Source: Indolivaga alginatilytica
Lineage (GTDB): Bacteria; Bacteroidota; Bacteroidia; Bacteroidales; Dysgonomonadaceae
Direction of reading: 5' to 3'
Assembly (NCBI RefSeq): GCF_003201355.1
Contig: NZ_QICL01000003.1
Span: 114,574 to 178,573 of the forward strand
DNA length: 64,000 bases
Made by a program: the position numbers and the translations under genes. Below, one piece after another: positions 27,001-32,052 of this stretch. Below the pieces are notes generated by a model that saw only the letters and a list, made by a program, of their open reading frames with translations, searched no databases and was not told the origin of the DNA. Each line of letters opens with the position of its first letter. The first letter of the stretch is position 1.

Positions 27001-27774
27001 CTATTCTATATTTTTTCTCACTTTCGTTAAGAATTCTAACATTTCACCGGCATCTTTCTTTTCGATGATTGAAAGCAATTGTCCCAGTTCTTCTCTTATC
27101 TGTTCCACTTGTTGTGGAGTATATGGGTTGAATAAAATCTCAGTCAAAAGGAAATCGTCTTCCGACAAAAGACCTTTGGCAATATCCATGTGTCTTTTGA
27201 AAGTAGTTCCTGGAGCTTCCTGATGTTTCATAACCGAGGCAAATACCAGAGTTGAAGCAAAAGGTATAGATAGCGAATAGGCTATCGTTTGATCATGCTC
27301 ATCGAAGCTGTATTCAAATACTTGAAGGTGTAGGCTTCTGTATAAATCCAGAAAGAACTCTTTACCCTTTTCCGATGATTCTGATATAACAATGGCACTT
27401 TGGGTGCTAAGGTTCCGCAGATCGGCAAAGGTAGGTCCGAACATAGGGTGTGAAGAGGCAAAAGGTTGTTTTATGGATGCGTAAAATTCCTGTAAGCCTG
27501 TTTTTACCGATGCTATATCCGAGATAATACAAGTTTCGCTAATGTATGGCAGAATAGTTTTGAATGCATCAATAGTATATTTTACGGTTGCCGCATTGAT
27601 AACTAACTCCGGATTGAATTCCGAAATTTCTTTCGGATCACTCATCCTTACCACATTGTAAGCGAATTTTAATCGATCGGGGTTTGTGTCAAATATCGCA
27701 ACCTCATGATTGGAACTCAGTACATCAGAAAAGAAAGATCCCATCTTTCCTGCACCTAATATTAATATTTTCAT
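27001..27774 (-). CDS. tyrA: Prephenate dehydrogenase
   Basis: 257 residues; oxidises and decarboxylates prephenate to 4-hydroxyphenylpyruvate for tyrosine. An NAD-binding motif GAGKMG lies at residues 7-12, SDIASVKTGLQEFY and SSHPMFGPTF give the conserved prephenate-binding part, and the C-terminal half is helical. No ACT domain is present. It is the last gene of the Phe/Tyr operon, 82 bases after the DAHP synthase gene. Confidence 0.9.
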   Translation of the reverse strand: MKILILGAGKMGSFFSDVLSSNHEVAIFDTNPDRLKFAYNVVRMSDPKEISEFNPELVINAATVKYTIDAFKTILPYISETCIISDIASVKTGLQEFYASIKQPFASSHPMFGPTFADLRNLSTQSAIVISESSEKGKEFFLDLYRSLHLQVFEYSFDEHDQTIAYSLSIPFASTLVFASVMKHQEAPGTTFKRHMDIAKGLLSEDDFLLTEILFNPYTPQQVEQIREELGQLLSIIEKKDAGEMLEFLTKVRKNIE

Positions 27775-27856: not shown

Positions 27857-28918
27857 TTATTTATTTAAAATATCCAGTTGCACTCTTACTGATTCTTCGT
27901 GTATAGCTTCTAGTATAACACGCATAAATTCAGGATTCATACCCATTTCAGTAGCTTGAGCAATACGTTTAGTCAGAATTTCATCATAACGATCGGTTTG
28001 TACGATAGTCATATTATGCTCTTTTTTGAAAGTGCCGATCTCTTTGGAAACACGCATGCGTTTAGCTATAAGTTCGAGTAACTGATCGTCTGCTTCATCA
28101 ATTTGACGGCGAAGAGCTGATAAATCTTCAGTTGTTTGTTTACCTTCACGTATAATTAATGCACCTAGTATTTCCTTTAATCTCTCAGGTGTTACTTGTT
28201 GAGAAGCATCACTCCAAGCAGAATCGGGGTTGCAATGTGTTTCGATGATCAGACCTTCGAAATTCAAATCCATAGCTTGTTGAGAAAGCGGTTGAATCAA
28301 ATCGCGTTTTCCTCCGATATGGCTAGGGTCGCAAATGATCGGAAGATCAGGGTAACGACGTTTCAATTCGATTGGTATATGCCATTGTGGAAGGTTACGG
28401 TATATCTTTTTGTCGAAAGAACTGAATCCTCTGTGTATAGCTCCCAGTTTAGTTAAACCAACATTGCTTAAACGTTCCAGTGCACCGATCCATAATTCGA
28501 GATCAGGATTTACAGGATTCTTTACTAGTACAGGAATATCGACTCCTTGTAAAGCTTCTGCAATTTCTTGTACAGCAAAAGGGTTTGCAGTTGTACGTGC
28601 ACCGATCCAAAGTAAATCTACTCCGTATTTAAGAGCTTCGTATACATGTTTTTGAGTGGCAACTTCTGTAGAAACATACATTCCCGTTTCTTTTTTCACT
28701 CTCTTCAACCAAGCTAAGCCTTCGCTTCCGATACCTTCAAAACCTCCGGGTTTAGTACGGGGTTTCCATATTCCGGCACGCATTACTTTAATACCGTCAG
28801 CTGCCAGTTGTTTGGCAGTTTCCATTACTTGGTCTTCAGTTTCGGCACTGCAAGGTCCTGCAATAACGAAAGGTCTTTTCGGGTCTACTCCCGGAAGTAA
28901 AATTGATTCTAATTTCAT
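27857..28918 (-). CDS. Bifunctional DAHP synthase / chorismate mutase
   Basis: 353 residues. Residues about 1-255 are a class I-beta-type DAHP (KDO8P-like) synthase with FVIAGPCSAE, KPRTKPGGFEG, IGARTT and DPSHIGG, catalysing the first step of the shikimate pathway. Residues about 265-353 are an AroQ-type chorismate mutase (LSALRRQIDEADDQLLELIAKRM). The fusion joins the entry and branch steps of Phe/Tyr synthesis, and the mutase domain often provides feedback control. It lies between the GNAT gene and tyrA. Confidence 0.94.
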   Translation of the reverse strand: MKLESILLPGVDPKRPFVIAGPCSAETEDQVMETAKQLAADGIKVMRAGIWKPRTKPGGFEGIGSEGLAWLKRVKKETGMYVSTEVATQKHVYEALKYGVDLLWIGARTTANPFAVQEIAEALQGVDIPVLVKNPVNPDLELWIGALERLSNVGLTKLGAIHRGFSSFDKKIYRNLPQWHIPIELKRRYPDLPIICDPSHIGGKRDLIQPLSQQAMDLNFEGLIIETHCNPDSAWSDASQQVTPERLKEILGALIIREGKQTTEDLSALRRQIDEADDQLLELIAKRMRVSKEIGTFKKEHNMTIVQTDRYDEILTKRIAQATEMGMNPEFMRVILEAIHEESVRVQLDILNK

Positions 28919-29019: not shown

Positions 29020-29577
29020 TTAAATATTCGCAACCTTTAATGTCATTGTTATCTCATCTACATATTCATCAGATGATAGCTTAATAAAATCGGGATGCCT
29101 TCCAATCTCTGTAAAACCGAATTTATGATAGAGTGCAATTCCATTTTTATTGGTTACGTATGTTCCCAGCCAAAGAATTTCTATCGATGGATTTTCTTTA
29201 GCCCATTTTATTGCAGCCTCAAAAAATGCTGATCCAACTCCTTTGCCCCTCCATGATGCAAGCATACCTATACCAATGCAAGAGGTGTGTTTCATCATTT
29301 CTCTTTGGGCTCCGTTAAGGCTTATATTCCCAATGATCCGATTATCGTATGTTGCTACTAATAGCAGGCTATTTTTGCTGTCGATAAGAGATTTGATCCA
29401 TGTGGCTTCTTCATCCGCCGTAAGGTTAAATTCTCCTTGAGTGTAGGGTATAAATTCACTCTCTTCAACATATTCCTTTACAACAGCTACCAGCTCTTCG
29501 GCATCGTTCATTCGGGCTTCACGGATAACTATGGTTTCTCCGTTCTTTAAGACTGATTCTATTGCTTCAAATTTCAT
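29020..29577 (-). CDS. GNAT family N-acetyltransferase
   Basis: 185 residues with a RimI-like GNAT fold. The acetyl-CoA site is RGKGVG within GIGMLASWRGKGVGSAFF, followed by GTYVTNKNGIALYHKFGFTEIGR, the usual motif B. Substrate unknown. It sits inside the aromatic amino-acid operon, 12 bases after the aminotransferase, although nothing ties it to that pathway; it may simply share the transcript. Confidence 0.85.
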   Translation of the reverse strand: MKFEAIESVLKNGETIVIREARMNDAEELVAVVKEYVEESEFIPYTQGEFNLTADEEATWIKSLIDSKNSLLLVATYDNRIIGNISLNGAQREMMKHTSCIGIGMLASWRGKGVGSAFFEAAIKWAKENPSIEILWLGTYVTNKNGIALYHKFGFTEIGRHPDFIKLSSDEYVDEITMTLKVANI

Positions 29578-29589
29578 GTCTGATAGAAT

Positions 29590-30762
29590 TTAAGCCAGTT
29601 TTTTTATTCTTTCCAAAGCCTCTTTCAGCATTTGCTCATTGCAGCAAAGAGAGATGCGGATGTATCTTTTGCCTTTATCGCCGAATATAAATCCGGGGGT
29701 AAGGAATACATTTGCTTCATATAGAATTTTGTCTGCCAGTTCAGCACTGTCTTTGTACGTATCAGGAATTTTTCCCCATAAGAACAGACCTACTTGCTTC
29801 GGATCAAAAGTACAGCCTAAGGTATCCATTATTTGCTCTGCATACTTGCGGCGGGCCGTGTATAAGTTGATATTATTCTCTATATGCCATTCTTCCGAAT
29901 TGTTGAGTGCTGCAATAGCTGCTAATTGAACAGGTTTAAACTGACCGCTGTCGATATTACTTTTCACTTTCAGTATCCATTGTACAAATTGCGGATTGGA
30001 TGCCAACATAGCCATACGCCACCCCGGCATATTGTGCGATTTGCTGAGCGAATTCATTTCAATACAAATATCTTTAGCCCCTTCTATTTGCAGGATGCTC
30101 AATCTGTTTGTATTTAAAATAAAGCTATATGGATTATCATTGACGATTACAATTCCGTGTTTCTTACCGAACGCGACCAAACGCTCATATAATTCTACTG
30201 TTGCATTTGCTCCGGTAGGCATATTGGGATAATTAACCCACATCAATTTTACATTCGACAAGTCTGTTTTTTCGAGAGCCTCAAAATCCGGCTGCCAATT
30301 ATTGTTCTCATCCAGATCGTAAGTATGTATTTTGGCTTGCACCAGATTACTAACTGATGTATATGTCGGGTAACCGGGATTTGGGATGAGTACACCATCT
30401 CCGGGATTAAGAAATGTAAGTGAAATATGTAAGATTCCTTCCTTAGATCCTATAAGCGGCTGAACTTCCCGAGAAGGGTCTAAATCTACCTTATACCATT
30501 TCTTGTACCAATCAGCGAAAGCACAGCGTAGTTCGGGTATACCTACGTAAGGCTGATATCCGTGTACGTCTGGTTTTACAGCCGATTCGCATAGAGCCTC
30601 TATCGTCTCTTTGGAAGGAGGCAGATCGGGGCTTCCTATGCCCAGGCTTATTACATTTTTGCCTGCTGCATTCATCTCGGCAACTTCTTTAAGTTTTGTC
30701 GAGAAATAGTATTCGCTAATAGAATTGAGGCGCTCTGCCGGAGTAATCTGTTTCGTGCTCAT
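29590..30762 (-). CDS. PLP-dependent aminotransferase of the Phe/Tyr operon
   Basis: 390 residues, fold-type I (class I/II) aminotransferase. Landmarks: SLGIGSPDLPPS, NPGYPTY, VNYPNMPTGA, the PLP lysine in NSLSKSHNMPGWRMA, and the carboxylate-binding Arg near the C-terminus (RYIRISL). Its place between pheA and the DAHP synthase suggests it makes Phe and/or Tyr from the keto acids, but sequence alone also allows LL-diaminopimelate or alanine-type activity. Confidence 0.88.
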   Translation of the reverse strand: MSTKQITPAERLNSISEYYFSTKLKEVAEMNAAGKNVISLGIGSPDLPPSKETIEALCESAVKPDVHGYQPYVGIPELRCAFADWYKKWYKVDLDPSREVQPLIGSKEGILHISLTFLNPGDGVLIPNPGYPTYTSVSNLVQAKIHTYDLDENNNWQPDFEALEKTDLSNVKLMWVNYPNMPTGANATVELYERLVAFGKKHGIVIVNDNPYSFILNTNRLSILQIEGAKDICIEMNSLSKSHNMPGWRMAMLASNPQFVQWILKVKSNIDSGQFKPVQLAAIAALNNSEEWHIENNINLYTARRKYAEQIMDTLGCTFDPKQVGLFLWGKIPDTYKDSAELADKILYEANVFLTPGFIFGDKGKRYIRISLCCNEQMLKEALERIKKLA

Positions 30763-30799
30763 ATTTCTAAGTAAAGTTACAATTTAATGATAATTCCGG

Positions 30800-30860
30800 T
30801 TGTAGGGGCAGACCTGCGTATCTGGCTTTTGTAGGTGAACATATAGTTCACACCCCTACA
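30800..30860. repeat. TGTAGGGG-type inverted repeat between pheA and the aminotransferase
   Basis: Outer ends TGTAGGGG (30801-30808) and CCCCTACA (30853-30860) pair. Inside lie a second TGTAGG and a hairpin GTGAAC/GTTCAC (30835-30840, 30846-30851). It is a degenerate relative of the perfect repeat at 26940-27000. Confidence 0.7.
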
Positions 30861-30890
30861 CCAAAGTAATGAAAAGGTATCGAACCTTTA
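30859..30890 (-). repeat. Dispersed palindromic repeat at the pheA stop
   Basis: Reverse copy with an altered but still self-complementary head: AAAGGTATCGAACCTTTA (AAAGGT pairs with ACCTTT). CACCAAAGTAATG precedes it. Its final TTA is the pheA stop codon on the minus strand. Confidence 0.65.
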
Positions 30891-31733
30891 TAGTTCACTT
30901 TGTCTTCCTTCAGGGTAATCTCCCAATATTTTCAAATCGCTGATTAATGGACGTATTGCTGTCAGTGATTGTTGATATCGTTCATAATTATCGAATTTTA
31001 TATCTACATAAAACTGATATTCCCATTCTCTGCCAATAATAGGAAGCGATTGTATCTTAGTCAGGTTTACATGATAGAATGAAAGTACAGATAGTACCTG
31101 CGATAAGCTTCCCTCGCTGTGAGGCACTGTAAAAACAATAGATGATTTATTTAATACTTCGTCTTTCTGTATTTCGTCTACAATCCATCGGTTGCCAAAA
31201 ATAAGAAAGCGAGTAAAATTGTGCTTGTTAGTTTCAATTCCCCTCGCTAGTATATCTAATCCGTATATTTCGGCTGCTCTTGTACTGCATATGGCTGCTG
31301 TGCCTACTAGGTTTTTATCGGCAATATCTTTTGCTGCAAGTGCTGTATCCTCGTGTTCCACTACTTTTACTTTAGGTAAAGTTTCTAAGAAATCGACACA
31401 CTGCATCAATGCAATAGGGTGAGATGTTACTTCTTTAATGTCATGTATACTTTGTCCGGGTAATGCAGCCAGGCAATGCGATACACGTTGTTTGTATTCA
31501 CCGGCAATAGGTAGCTTATTTGTCTTTAGCAATTCATAGTTTTGTAGGAGACTACCTGCAATTGTATTCTCAATAGCCATGATCCCGATTATATTCGGAT
31601 CTTTCTTGATAGAGGTAAAAATATCTTTAAATGTGATACAGGGAACGATTTCAACCTCTTCTCCTACAAAAAAGTTTTCTGCTGCTATCCCGTGATATGC
31701 TCCGAGTCCTCCTTGAATTGCTACCTTTCTCAT
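30888..31733 (-). CDS. pheA: Prephenate dehydratase
   Basis: 281 residues; converts prephenate to phenylpyruvate. The N-terminal catalytic part carries IENTIAGSL, SHPIALMQC and the catalytic TRF motif at 174-176 (HNFTRFLIFG). A C-terminal ACT domain from about 195 (GSLSQVLSVLSFYHVNLTKIQS) would sense phenylalanine. No chorismate mutase domain, in agreement with the separate DAHP synthase fusion. First structural gene of the operon, 128 bases after the attenuator terminator. Confidence 0.95.
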   Translation of the reverse strand: MRKVAIQGGLGAYHGIAAENFFVGEEVEIVPCITFKDIFTSIKKDPNIIGIMAIENTIAGSLLQNYELLKTNKLPIAGEYKQRVSHCLAALPGQSIHDIKEVTSHPIALMQCVDFLETLPKVKVVEHEDTALAAKDIADKNLVGTAAICSTRAAEIYGLDILARGIETNKHNFTRFLIFGNRWIVDEIQKDEVLNKSSIVFTVPHSEGSLSQVLSVLSFYHVNLTKIQSLPIIGREWEYQFYVDIKFDNYERYQQSLTAIRPLISDLKILGDYPEGRQSEL

Positions 31734-31767
31734 TTGAGTAATTTCTATTATTTGTTTGTATATGACT

Positions 31768-31838
31768 TAATATCTGAGACCTTTTCTTGCTTTGACAAGT
31801 ATAATATCTATTGATTATTATAGCTTCTAAATACTTCA
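31768..31838 (+). repeat. Dispersed palindromic repeat in the pheA leader
   Basis: Degenerate copy: TAATATCTGAGACCTTTTC, then TTGCTTTGACAAGTATAAT and a TTATAG segment. It lies between the attenuator terminator and the pheA start. Confidence 0.6.
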
Positions 31839-31860
31839 TTCATTTTTCCGGAATACTTAA

Positions 31861-31894
31861 AATGAAAAAATCCCGTCAGGCTTGACAGGATTTT
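31861..31894 (-). terminator. Attenuator terminator of the Phe/Tyr operon
   Basis: On the minus strand a 12-bp stem (31894-31883 with 31878-31867), loop AGCC, then TTTTTT. One pair (31874/31887) is C:A on the + strand but G:U in the minus transcript, which shows which strand is used. The 5' arm is also complementary to the segment 31929-31939 just after the leader stop codon. Confidence 0.9.
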
Positions 31895-31928
31895 ATATAT
31901 CTATTATGTTGTTTTCTTTACTACATAC

Positions 31929-31939
31929 AAAATCCTGTC
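31929..31939 (-). promoter_or_regulatory. Antiterminator arm of the Phe/Tyr attenuator
   Basis: GACAGGATTTT begins immediately after the leader peptide stop and pairs perfectly over 11 bases with AAAATCCTGTC, the 5' arm of the terminator. A ribosome at the stop codon would cover it and allow termination; a ribosome stalled at Phe or Tyr codons would leave it free. Confidence 0.85.
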
Positions 31940-31996
31940 TTACCTTTTAAAGTAAAAGTAAAAAAAGAAGTAGTATGCAAAAGAAAAATTTCTCAT
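31940..31996 (-). CDS. Phe/Tyr leader peptide of the attenuator
   Basis: An 18-codon frame reads MRNFSFAYYFFFYFYFKR and ends in TAA. Seven residues are Phe and four Tyr, including a run Y-Y-F-F-F-Y-F-Y-F. It starts about 20 nt downstream of a consensus promoter and stops one base before the antiterminator arm. The operon below makes exactly Phe and Tyr. Composition, position and the competing hairpins together are the standard picture of ribosome-mediated attenuation. Confidence 0.9.
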   Translation of the reverse strand: MRNFSFAYYFFFYFYFKR

Positions 31997-32023
31997 TGTT
32001 CTGTTTTTCGTAAAATGATTTGA

Positions 32024-32052
32024 CAAAAGTAATATTTTTTTGACAAATGCAA
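32024..32052 (-). promoter_or_regulatory. Promoter of the Phe/Tyr operon
   Basis: Minus strand: TTG at 32052-32050, an 18-base spacer, then TACTTTTG at 32031-32024. The transcript would start near 32017, about 20 nt before the leader peptide ATG. Confidence 0.7.

Follow-up and report, generated by a model that had tools for sequence, protein, structure and literature searches.

The 64-kb stretch of Indolivaga alginatilytica DNA analysed here (the window) contains, on its minus strand, an operon for phenylalanine and tyrosine biosynthesis preceded by a short open reading frame (ORF) rich in Phe and Tyr codons, which raises the question of whether a translating ribosome governs transcription of this operon. 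The attenuator mechanism is classical, and the E. coli pheL leader has alternative hairpins as does the window element. Compared with E. coli pheL-pheA, the leader in the window mixes Phe and Tyr codons, its operon, with tyrA and DAHP synthase among its genes, serves the synthesis of both amino acids, and it combines a Bacteroidota-type promoter with the lack of an Rfam match. A leader peptide rich in the end product and a terminator before pheA are likewise features of the E. coli pheL-pheA and pheST attenuators, as treated in the relevant passages of PMC11802643.

The preliminary description proposed a promoter, an 18-codon peptide with 7 Phe and 4 Tyr residues, an antiterminator arm directly after the stop codon, a terminator whose 5' arm pairs with that arm over 11 bases, and a downstream operon making Phe and Tyr. 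All of these elements were recovered at the positions given for them, as follows.

32024-32052, minus strand: promoter, with the -7 box TACTTTTG (TAnnTTTG) at 32031-32024 and TTG at 32052-32050, 18 nt upstream; from the sequence
31940-31996, minus strand: leader peptide ORF encoding MRNFSFAYYFFFYFYFKR, with ATG at 31996 and stop codon TAA at 31942-31940; conserved in relatives
within the leader ORF, minus strand: proposed regulatory codons 8-16, YYFFFYFYF; from the sequence
31973-31981, minus strand: arm 1, 5' side of the competing 1:2 helix, TTTGCATAC, codons Phe-Ala-Tyr; from covariation
31929-31939, minus strand: arm 2, the 5' arm of the antiterminator, GACAGGATTTT, its first base directly after the stop codon; from sequence and covariation
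31920-31928, minus strand: 3' side of the 1:2 helix, GTATGTAGT, pairing with arm 1; from covariation
31884-31894, minus strand: arm 3, AAAATCCTGTC, common to antiterminator and terminator; from sequence and covariation
31867-31877, minus strand: arm 4, the 3' arm of the terminator, GACGGGATTTT; from covariation, a terminator-like site also being called separately
31861-31866, minus strand: T-rich tract, predicted 3' end of a short leader RNA; from the sequence
30888-31733, minus strand: pheA, prephenate dehydratase, first gene of the operon (PF00800, E 2.7e-53)
29590-30762, minus strand: aminotransferase class I/II (PF00155, E 7.1e-62)
29020-29577, minus strand: GNAT acetyltransferase, between the aminotransferase and DAHPS/CM genes (PF00583, E 2.9e-15)
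27857-28918, minus strand: DAHP synthase / chorismate mutase fusion, DAHPS/CM (PF00793 and PF01817)
27001-27774, minus strand: tyrA, prephenate dehydrogenase (PF02153, E 5.9e-8)

Eleven of the 18 codons specify Phe or Tyr, and arm 2 (31939-31929) begins at the next base after the TAA. Arms 2, 3 and 4 are each 11 bases long, and arm 3 is complementary to arm 2 at 11/11 positions and to arm 4 at 11/11 positions, which together with the covariation described below indicates a mutually exclusive terminator and antiterminator with a common arm. The separate terminator call at this locus gave a 12-pair terminator, and the fold of the 150 nt from 32010 to 31861 is better than those of shuffled versions (z = -6.3, 0/200 as good). 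As expected of an attenuator, the ORF, a predicted one and presumably translated, is short and rich in codons for the end products, and the downstream operon, running from pheA to tyrA by its Pfam domains, makes the sensed amino acids. The window pheA is 97% identical to that of Dysgonomonas sp. HGC4, the nearest named relative returned. The T-rich tract is separated from pheA by 127 nt (31734-31860), a gap that exceeds the one in the close relative L002 by 90 nt. Within the operon, the GNAT gene gave tblastn matches in 20 loci, including repeats from the same genome and many from Dysgonomonas, most loci extending too little downstream for its absence to be judged, and the gap between pheA and the aminotransferase gene contains an inverted-repeat-rich stretch (30780-30870) that occurs once in the window.

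The -7 box belongs to what is taken here to be the Bacteroidota-type promoter motif, a primary source for which is cited in PMC2864571. TAnnTTTG lies no more than 90 nt upstream of the leader ATG in 160 of 186 leaders (13.3 expected from shuffles), and is accompanied by TTG 20-25 nt further upstream in 139/186, with 1.0 expected.

A T-rich leader could by chance happen to read as Phe and Tyr, and seven-codon F/Y runs do occur at chance level genome-wide: the 5.1-Mb genome contains 18 such runs and 17 of the reversed control pattern. The Phe/Tyr run alone is thus no evidence. The seven-codon run was also tried as a finder of further leaders in 54 genomes and was rejected, the matches listed being about as many as for the reversed-pattern control. 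In a scan of both strands of the window, no site other than the leader reaches 8 F/Y in 10 codons. Chance can be tested by conservation at one place and on the sense strand. Upstream of pheA, at least 7 F/Y in 10 codons were found on the sense strand in 177 of 195 regions of the class and on the opposite strand in 0/195; with at least 6 F/Y in 10 codons the numbers were 184/195 and 4/195, respectively. Because the Phe/Tyr leader is conserved at one place on the sense strand, chance is excluded as an explanation for practical purposes, its probability being negligible.

For these counts a leader was defined as at least 6 F/Y in 10 codons, with an ATG or GTG start, within 400 nt of pheA. The family set consisted of 88 regions from 86 of the 88 pheA-bearing genomes (of 101 in total), G062 and G067 being excluded as their pheA genes are cut by contig ends; the other families of the order were represented by 26 loci, 40 hand-picked regions and 24 further loci, the other orders of the class by 26 loci, and other classes by 20 hand-picked regions and L198. 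Repeats or second copies (L090, L311, L312, L313, L315, L330), regions with less than 200 nt upstream (L056, L323) and one with an unplaced start (L238) were dropped. A Phe/Tyr leader precedes pheA in 85/87 regions in the family (3 on the opposite strand), 73/82 regions in other families of the order (1 on the opposite strand), 26/26 regions in other orders of the class (0) and 2/21 regions in other classes (0); over all four groups the opposite-strand control at this threshold is 4/216. The two regions of the family that fail the definition are L053, in which a version starting with TTG is present, and L064, which showed none. Seven of the nine misses in the order are solitary pheA genes, the other two being L105 and L260. 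The element is therefore present beyond Dysgonomonadaceae, in most of the regions tested across the class. Leaders were also found in L198 (genome G404) and L262 (G455), which bear other-class labels. Horizontal transfer is suggested for these two, since their pheA scores are closer to Bacteroidia than those of most members of their class label.

For coding and structure, 56 sequences hand-picked from 84 distinct family leaders were aligned (alignment A1). All gaps in the codon region (11/11) are exactly 3 nt, and those in the spacer have many lengths. Pairwise differences in codons 6-15 comprised 1761 synonymous, 1527 F-Y and 2491 other changes, with no stops; replacements outside F/Y are thus the commonest codon difference, which counts against the attenuator model. 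The 1:2 helix is paired in 89.3% of cells across the 56 sequences, with double-sided changes in 6/9 pairs. The antiterminator 2:3 helix is paired in 97.5% of cells, with double-sided changes in 4 of the 10 pairs counted, the outermost pair of arm 2 (its first base), which forms in only 38% of sequences, being omitted. For the terminator 3:4 helix, 99.8% of cells are paired and double-sided changes occur in 4/11 pairs. Double changes in the 1:2 and 2:3 helices together (10/19 pairs) exceed the 4.3 found in shuffles, of which 0/500 were as high, and those in the 3:4 helix exceed a shuffled value of 2.0, reached by 16/500. All five structure measures are above the slid controls, and shuffles never reach the observed values save for 16/500 in two terminator measures, with the caveat that related sequences can beat shuffles without structure. 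Among the clear compensations, a GC pair joining an Ala/Thr codon to the downstream arm is replaced by AU in 15 sequences, and a CG pair at a Tyr third base by UA in 15 sequences.

An alignment-free comparison covered 251 of 280 upstream regions, those in which both a core and a terminator could be identified, with redundant records included. It gave a mean pairing with the arm 2 region of 24.0 for the region's own arm 3, 18.7 for the arm 3 of other species and 12.4 for shuffled arm 3. Foreign arm 3 paired as well as the own one at an average frequency of 0.198, which counts against the attenuator model. RNAalifold independently returned the terminator and an inner hairpin formed by the last codons and the stop region. 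Comparison with relatives had been put forward as a check of the attenuator, and the conservation of both peptide and stems, judged by counts, alignment and covariation, came out in its favour.

These data also bear on the possibility that the ORF encodes a small hydrophobic peptide with a function of its own, the terminator ending its transcript and pheA having another promoter. The sequence is indeed conserved and hydrophobic, and the 127-nt gap between the terminator tract and pheA in the window is long. However, arms 2 and 3 covary, which a plain terminator would not need, the amino acid content changes with operon content (see below), and in 15 of the 16 examples listed the terminator and pheA are separated by 9-55 nt, the window being the exception with 133. 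An independent peptide is accordingly held to be very improbable.

The attenuator reading makes predictions about the position of the ribosome, which were examined by masking the ribosome footprint and folding the rest of the leader at equilibrium. In the window leader the antiterminator (11/11 pairs) is predicted with the A-site at each of codons 8-16, a run over all codons giving the ON state at codons 7-16, and the terminator is predicted at codons 5, 6 and 17-19 and also without a ribosome (9/11 pairs). When the RNA extends only up to arm 3, the antiterminator is predicted without a ribosome and at codons 5 and 6 (11/11), and with 8/11 pairs at codon 17. Among 186 leaders, 185 are OFF at the last codon and 183 are OFF without a ribosome. 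ON positions comprise 483 of 1823 F/Y codons versus 148 of 2131 other codons, and the 483 compare with 298 +/- 9 in shuffled peptides. Against the model, at equilibrium 1340/1823 F/Y positions are OFF and 107/186 leaders have no ON position; the mechanism must therefore rely on kinetic, co-transcriptional folding, in which the antiterminator forms before arm 4 is transcribed.

The correspondence between switch positions and codons is relevant to another explanation, namely that the arms are switched by a ligand, a protein or an uncharged tRNA (a riboswitch, an RNA-binding protein or a T-box) and the ORF is incidental. A structured 5' region with a terminator and an antiterminator would suit such a switch. 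Nevertheless, the Rfam scan of the window gave 0 families at or above gathering score, the Phe leader and T-box being among the Rfam families; moreover, gap lengths protect the reading frame, the switch positions in the window coincide with F/Y codons, and the leader residues track the pathway, as described below. This explanation appears extremely improbable.

It is very likely, then, that the leader in the window is a ribosome-mediated transcription attenuator sensing charged tRNA-Phe and charged tRNA-Tyr, and the following sequence of events may be proposed from the promoter, the arms and the folding predictions. RNA polymerase would start just upstream of the leader ORF. When both charged tRNAs are plentiful, the ribosome would reach the stop codon and cover arm 2, leaving arm 3 to pair with arm 4, and transcription would stop near 31861. 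When either amino acid is short, the ribosome would stall in codons 8-16 and mask arm 1; arm 2 would thereby be freed and would capture arm 3 before arm 4 is made, and with the antiterminator formed the polymerase would continue into pheA-aminotransferase-GNAT-DAHPS/CM-tyrA. With no ribosome, or with a very early stall, the long 1:2 hairpin would favour the terminator. That the 1:2 helix wins in time is an assumption only, since even with no ribosome the antiterminator is the predicted fold of the nascent window transcript once arm 3 has been made. Termination, stalling and the cellular response to Phe or Tyr are all, in this scheme, predictions from sequence. In some relatives (L009, L011, L016, L020, L193 and other Bacteroides loci) the ORF lacks a stop ahead of arm 2 and exceeds that of the window by 6-10 codons. 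Because the ORF of these relatives reads through arm 2, the requirement for a stop immediately ahead of this arm is not conserved, and the masking of arm 2 must work differently there.

If the leader measures the products of the genes behind it, its codons should follow the content of the operon, and genomes with a rearranged pathway allow this to be seen. Solitary pheA genes were found in 11 genomes: no aminotransferase, DAHPS/CM or tyrA match lies within the 2-6.5 kb downstream of pheA in G123, G305, G225, G366, G197, G114 and G188, or within 1.5 kb downstream in G635-G638. The leader is kept in 4 of the 11 and absent in 7. Those kept read RFFFFFAFFF in G123 and G305 (0 Tyr each), FFTHFFFFF in G114 (0 Tyr) and MYFDFVFGFLFCF in G188 (1 Tyr). 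In 7/7 genomes examined, the separated tyrA operon has a leader that contains 4-6 Tyr codons and is accompanied, as judged by eye, by a terminator, G188 having two such leaders in tandem. The ratio Y/(F+Y) is 0-0.14 in the solitary-pheA leaders versus 0.36-0.62 in the separated tyrA-operon leaders; among 183 other leaders, taken irrespective of operon structure, its median is 0.4, with one value no higher than 0.15 and 40 values of 0.5 or more. Most tyrA-operon leaders are thus found towards the upper end of the normal range and not outside it. The tyrA-operon leader of G366, at 0.36, is not Tyr-rich. Solitary pheA genes occur in four family labels (f24, f98, f15 and f89). Since other members of f98 and f15 retain pheA beside the aminotransferase gene or tyrA, the operon splits look to have been derived more than once. 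In G136, pheA, the aminotransferase and DAHPS/CM genes stand together without tyrA and the leader is mixed Phe/Tyr, as expected because these three genes serve both products. Trp codons are present in 28/186 leaders, for instance in SFWFYFYF, in genus g9 (e.g. L034, L043) and others, and possibly reflect Trp sensing, as the operon holds DAHP synthase.

Like the promoter motif, the ORF, the covarying arms and the conservation in most of the class sampled, the match between codons and operon content is a direct observation. This match supports the earlier suggestion that a single leader reads both amino acids, and together with the conservation of peptide and stems and the covariation it supports the interpretation of the locus as a Phe/Tyr transcription attenuator.

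Whether the Tyr codons take part in sensing deserves separate consideration. In Corynebacterium glutamicum, AroR, a leader with Phe and Tyr codons before the aromatic-pathway gene aroF, resembles the present case, and according to the passages of PMC11802643 concerned this mixed leader answers Phe limitation and not Tyr limitation. Tyr codons need not mean Tyr sensing, because AroR is reported to ignore Tyr limitation. The attenuator might on this precedent be effectively a Phe-only sensor, with the Tyr codons as passengers kept by RNA structure or codon similarity. Phe codons outnumber Tyr codons (means of 5.3 versus 3.47 in 186 leaders), and a preference for TAC among Tyr codons (132 versus 61 TAT in the 56 aligned leaders, compared with 48 versus 64 in nine window genes) hints at a structural constraint. 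The loss, or near loss, of Tyr from solitary-pheA leaders and its frequency in separated tyrA-operon leaders argue against this alternative, which is considered unlikely. AroR also differs from the window element in that it has Phe-Tyr-Phe (PMC11802643, same passages), whereas the window leader has nine consecutive F/Y codons and the codons of its relatives track operon content. Sensing of both charged tRNAs remains the preferred interpretation.

In some lineages two Phe/Tyr leader-terminator units stand in series before pheA. Such an arrangement was found in 10 regions (L096, L099, L104, L107, L108, L235, L254, L255, L258 and L259), after 11 of 237 distinct upstream regions had scored two units and L215 was set aside for a weak match 536 nt upstream. 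In 18/20 comparisons arm 3 of a tandem unit shows better pairing with the arm 2 region of its own unit than with that of the other; the second units of L108 and L255 do not, and L235 does so by 0.2 only. L102 and L195 appear tandem-like by eye and failed the criteria. No tandem leader attenuators of amino acid operons were found among the published matches listed; a tandem case in Salmonella mgtCBR, as presented in part of PMC3641672, belongs to a different system.

Taken as a whole, the distribution makes it reasonably likely that Bacteroidia possess an evolvable, codon-programmed aromatic sensor whose ancestral leader was mixed, containing codons for Phe as well as Tyr since both amino acids are products of its operon; after a split the pheA leader would become Phe-only and the tyrA leader Tyr-containing, usually Tyr-rich, and some lineages would have acquired two units in series, mostly with separate pairing arms. 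If this is true, the polymerase in the tandem lineages must pass two ribosome-gated terminators, and the response would be steeper.

The preliminary description held that such control is less described in this phylum, a view that needs qualification in the light of earlier notices. One of them concerns Bacteroides thetaiotaomicron, which is taken here to belong to the same order as the window genome. For its genes pheA > hisHb > aroAIbeta-aroQ > tyrA, a putative attenuator, in origin a database prediction, was listed in 2005 in Table 7 of PMC1173090, the passages concerned giving no leader peptide, arms or conservation for it. As the gene order is the same in a member of the same order, compared by description and not by sequence, this putative attenuator is probably the same element. 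Clues to leader-peptide attenuation at amino acid operons of Flavobacteriaceae are given in section 19 of PMC9723704, which reports that the 5' region ahead of pheA in Flavobacterium psychrophilum holds a structured element, conserved in other Flavobacteriaceae genera; neither a peptide nor a Phe/Tyr duality nor any connection with Bacteroidales is mentioned there. Two candidate upstream ORFs (uORFs) with Phe and Tyr at shikimate genes, thus in the same pathway, come from a five-genome survey (PMC6429828, section 15 and Fig. 6b) and are likened to the present leader by description only. Leader-peptide-like small ORFs (sORFs) of B. thetaiotaomicron are mentioned in PMC7366714, from whose main text, in the part considered, pheA is absent, and the main text of PMC2965389 contains none of Bacteroid, pheA, phenylalanine and tyrosine. 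Beyond the papers cited, no published Phe/Tyr leader peptide in Bacteroidota was found among the matches listed, in which subscription papers are thinly covered. Apart from the two prior notices in PMC1173090 (Table 7) and PMC9723704 (section 19), as far as these parts go, little was found, and to this extent the earlier view stands. In the literature searched, no earlier account was found of a Phe/Tyr leader peptide occurring throughout Bacteroidia, of the way it alters when operons split, or of the tandem units.

Regarding other amino acids, Bacteroid-trp (RF01692), presumably a trp leader, is a different RNA family from the window leader and has no match in the window. It is over cut-off in 7 of 13 genomes searched (G001, G002, G022, G029, G243, G319 and G376) and not over cut-off in the genome of the window. 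The relevant part of PMC2864571 presents it as a cis-regulatory RNA motif of Bacteroidetes. A search for His-run leaders in ten genomes, which could detect only runs of at least five consecutive His codons, gave no leader with a terminator among the 8 of 18 loci inspected.

Bacteroidota are major gut bacteria, and little on their amino acid regulation was found among the published matches listed. A compact and predictable sensor of Phe and Tyr supply, present through most of the class, would provide a testable control point in tractable strains, and the element would merit an entry as an RNA family and annotation as a small ORF family. It also illustrates how, in evolution, leader codons appear to be rewritten so as to keep in step with the genes of the operon.
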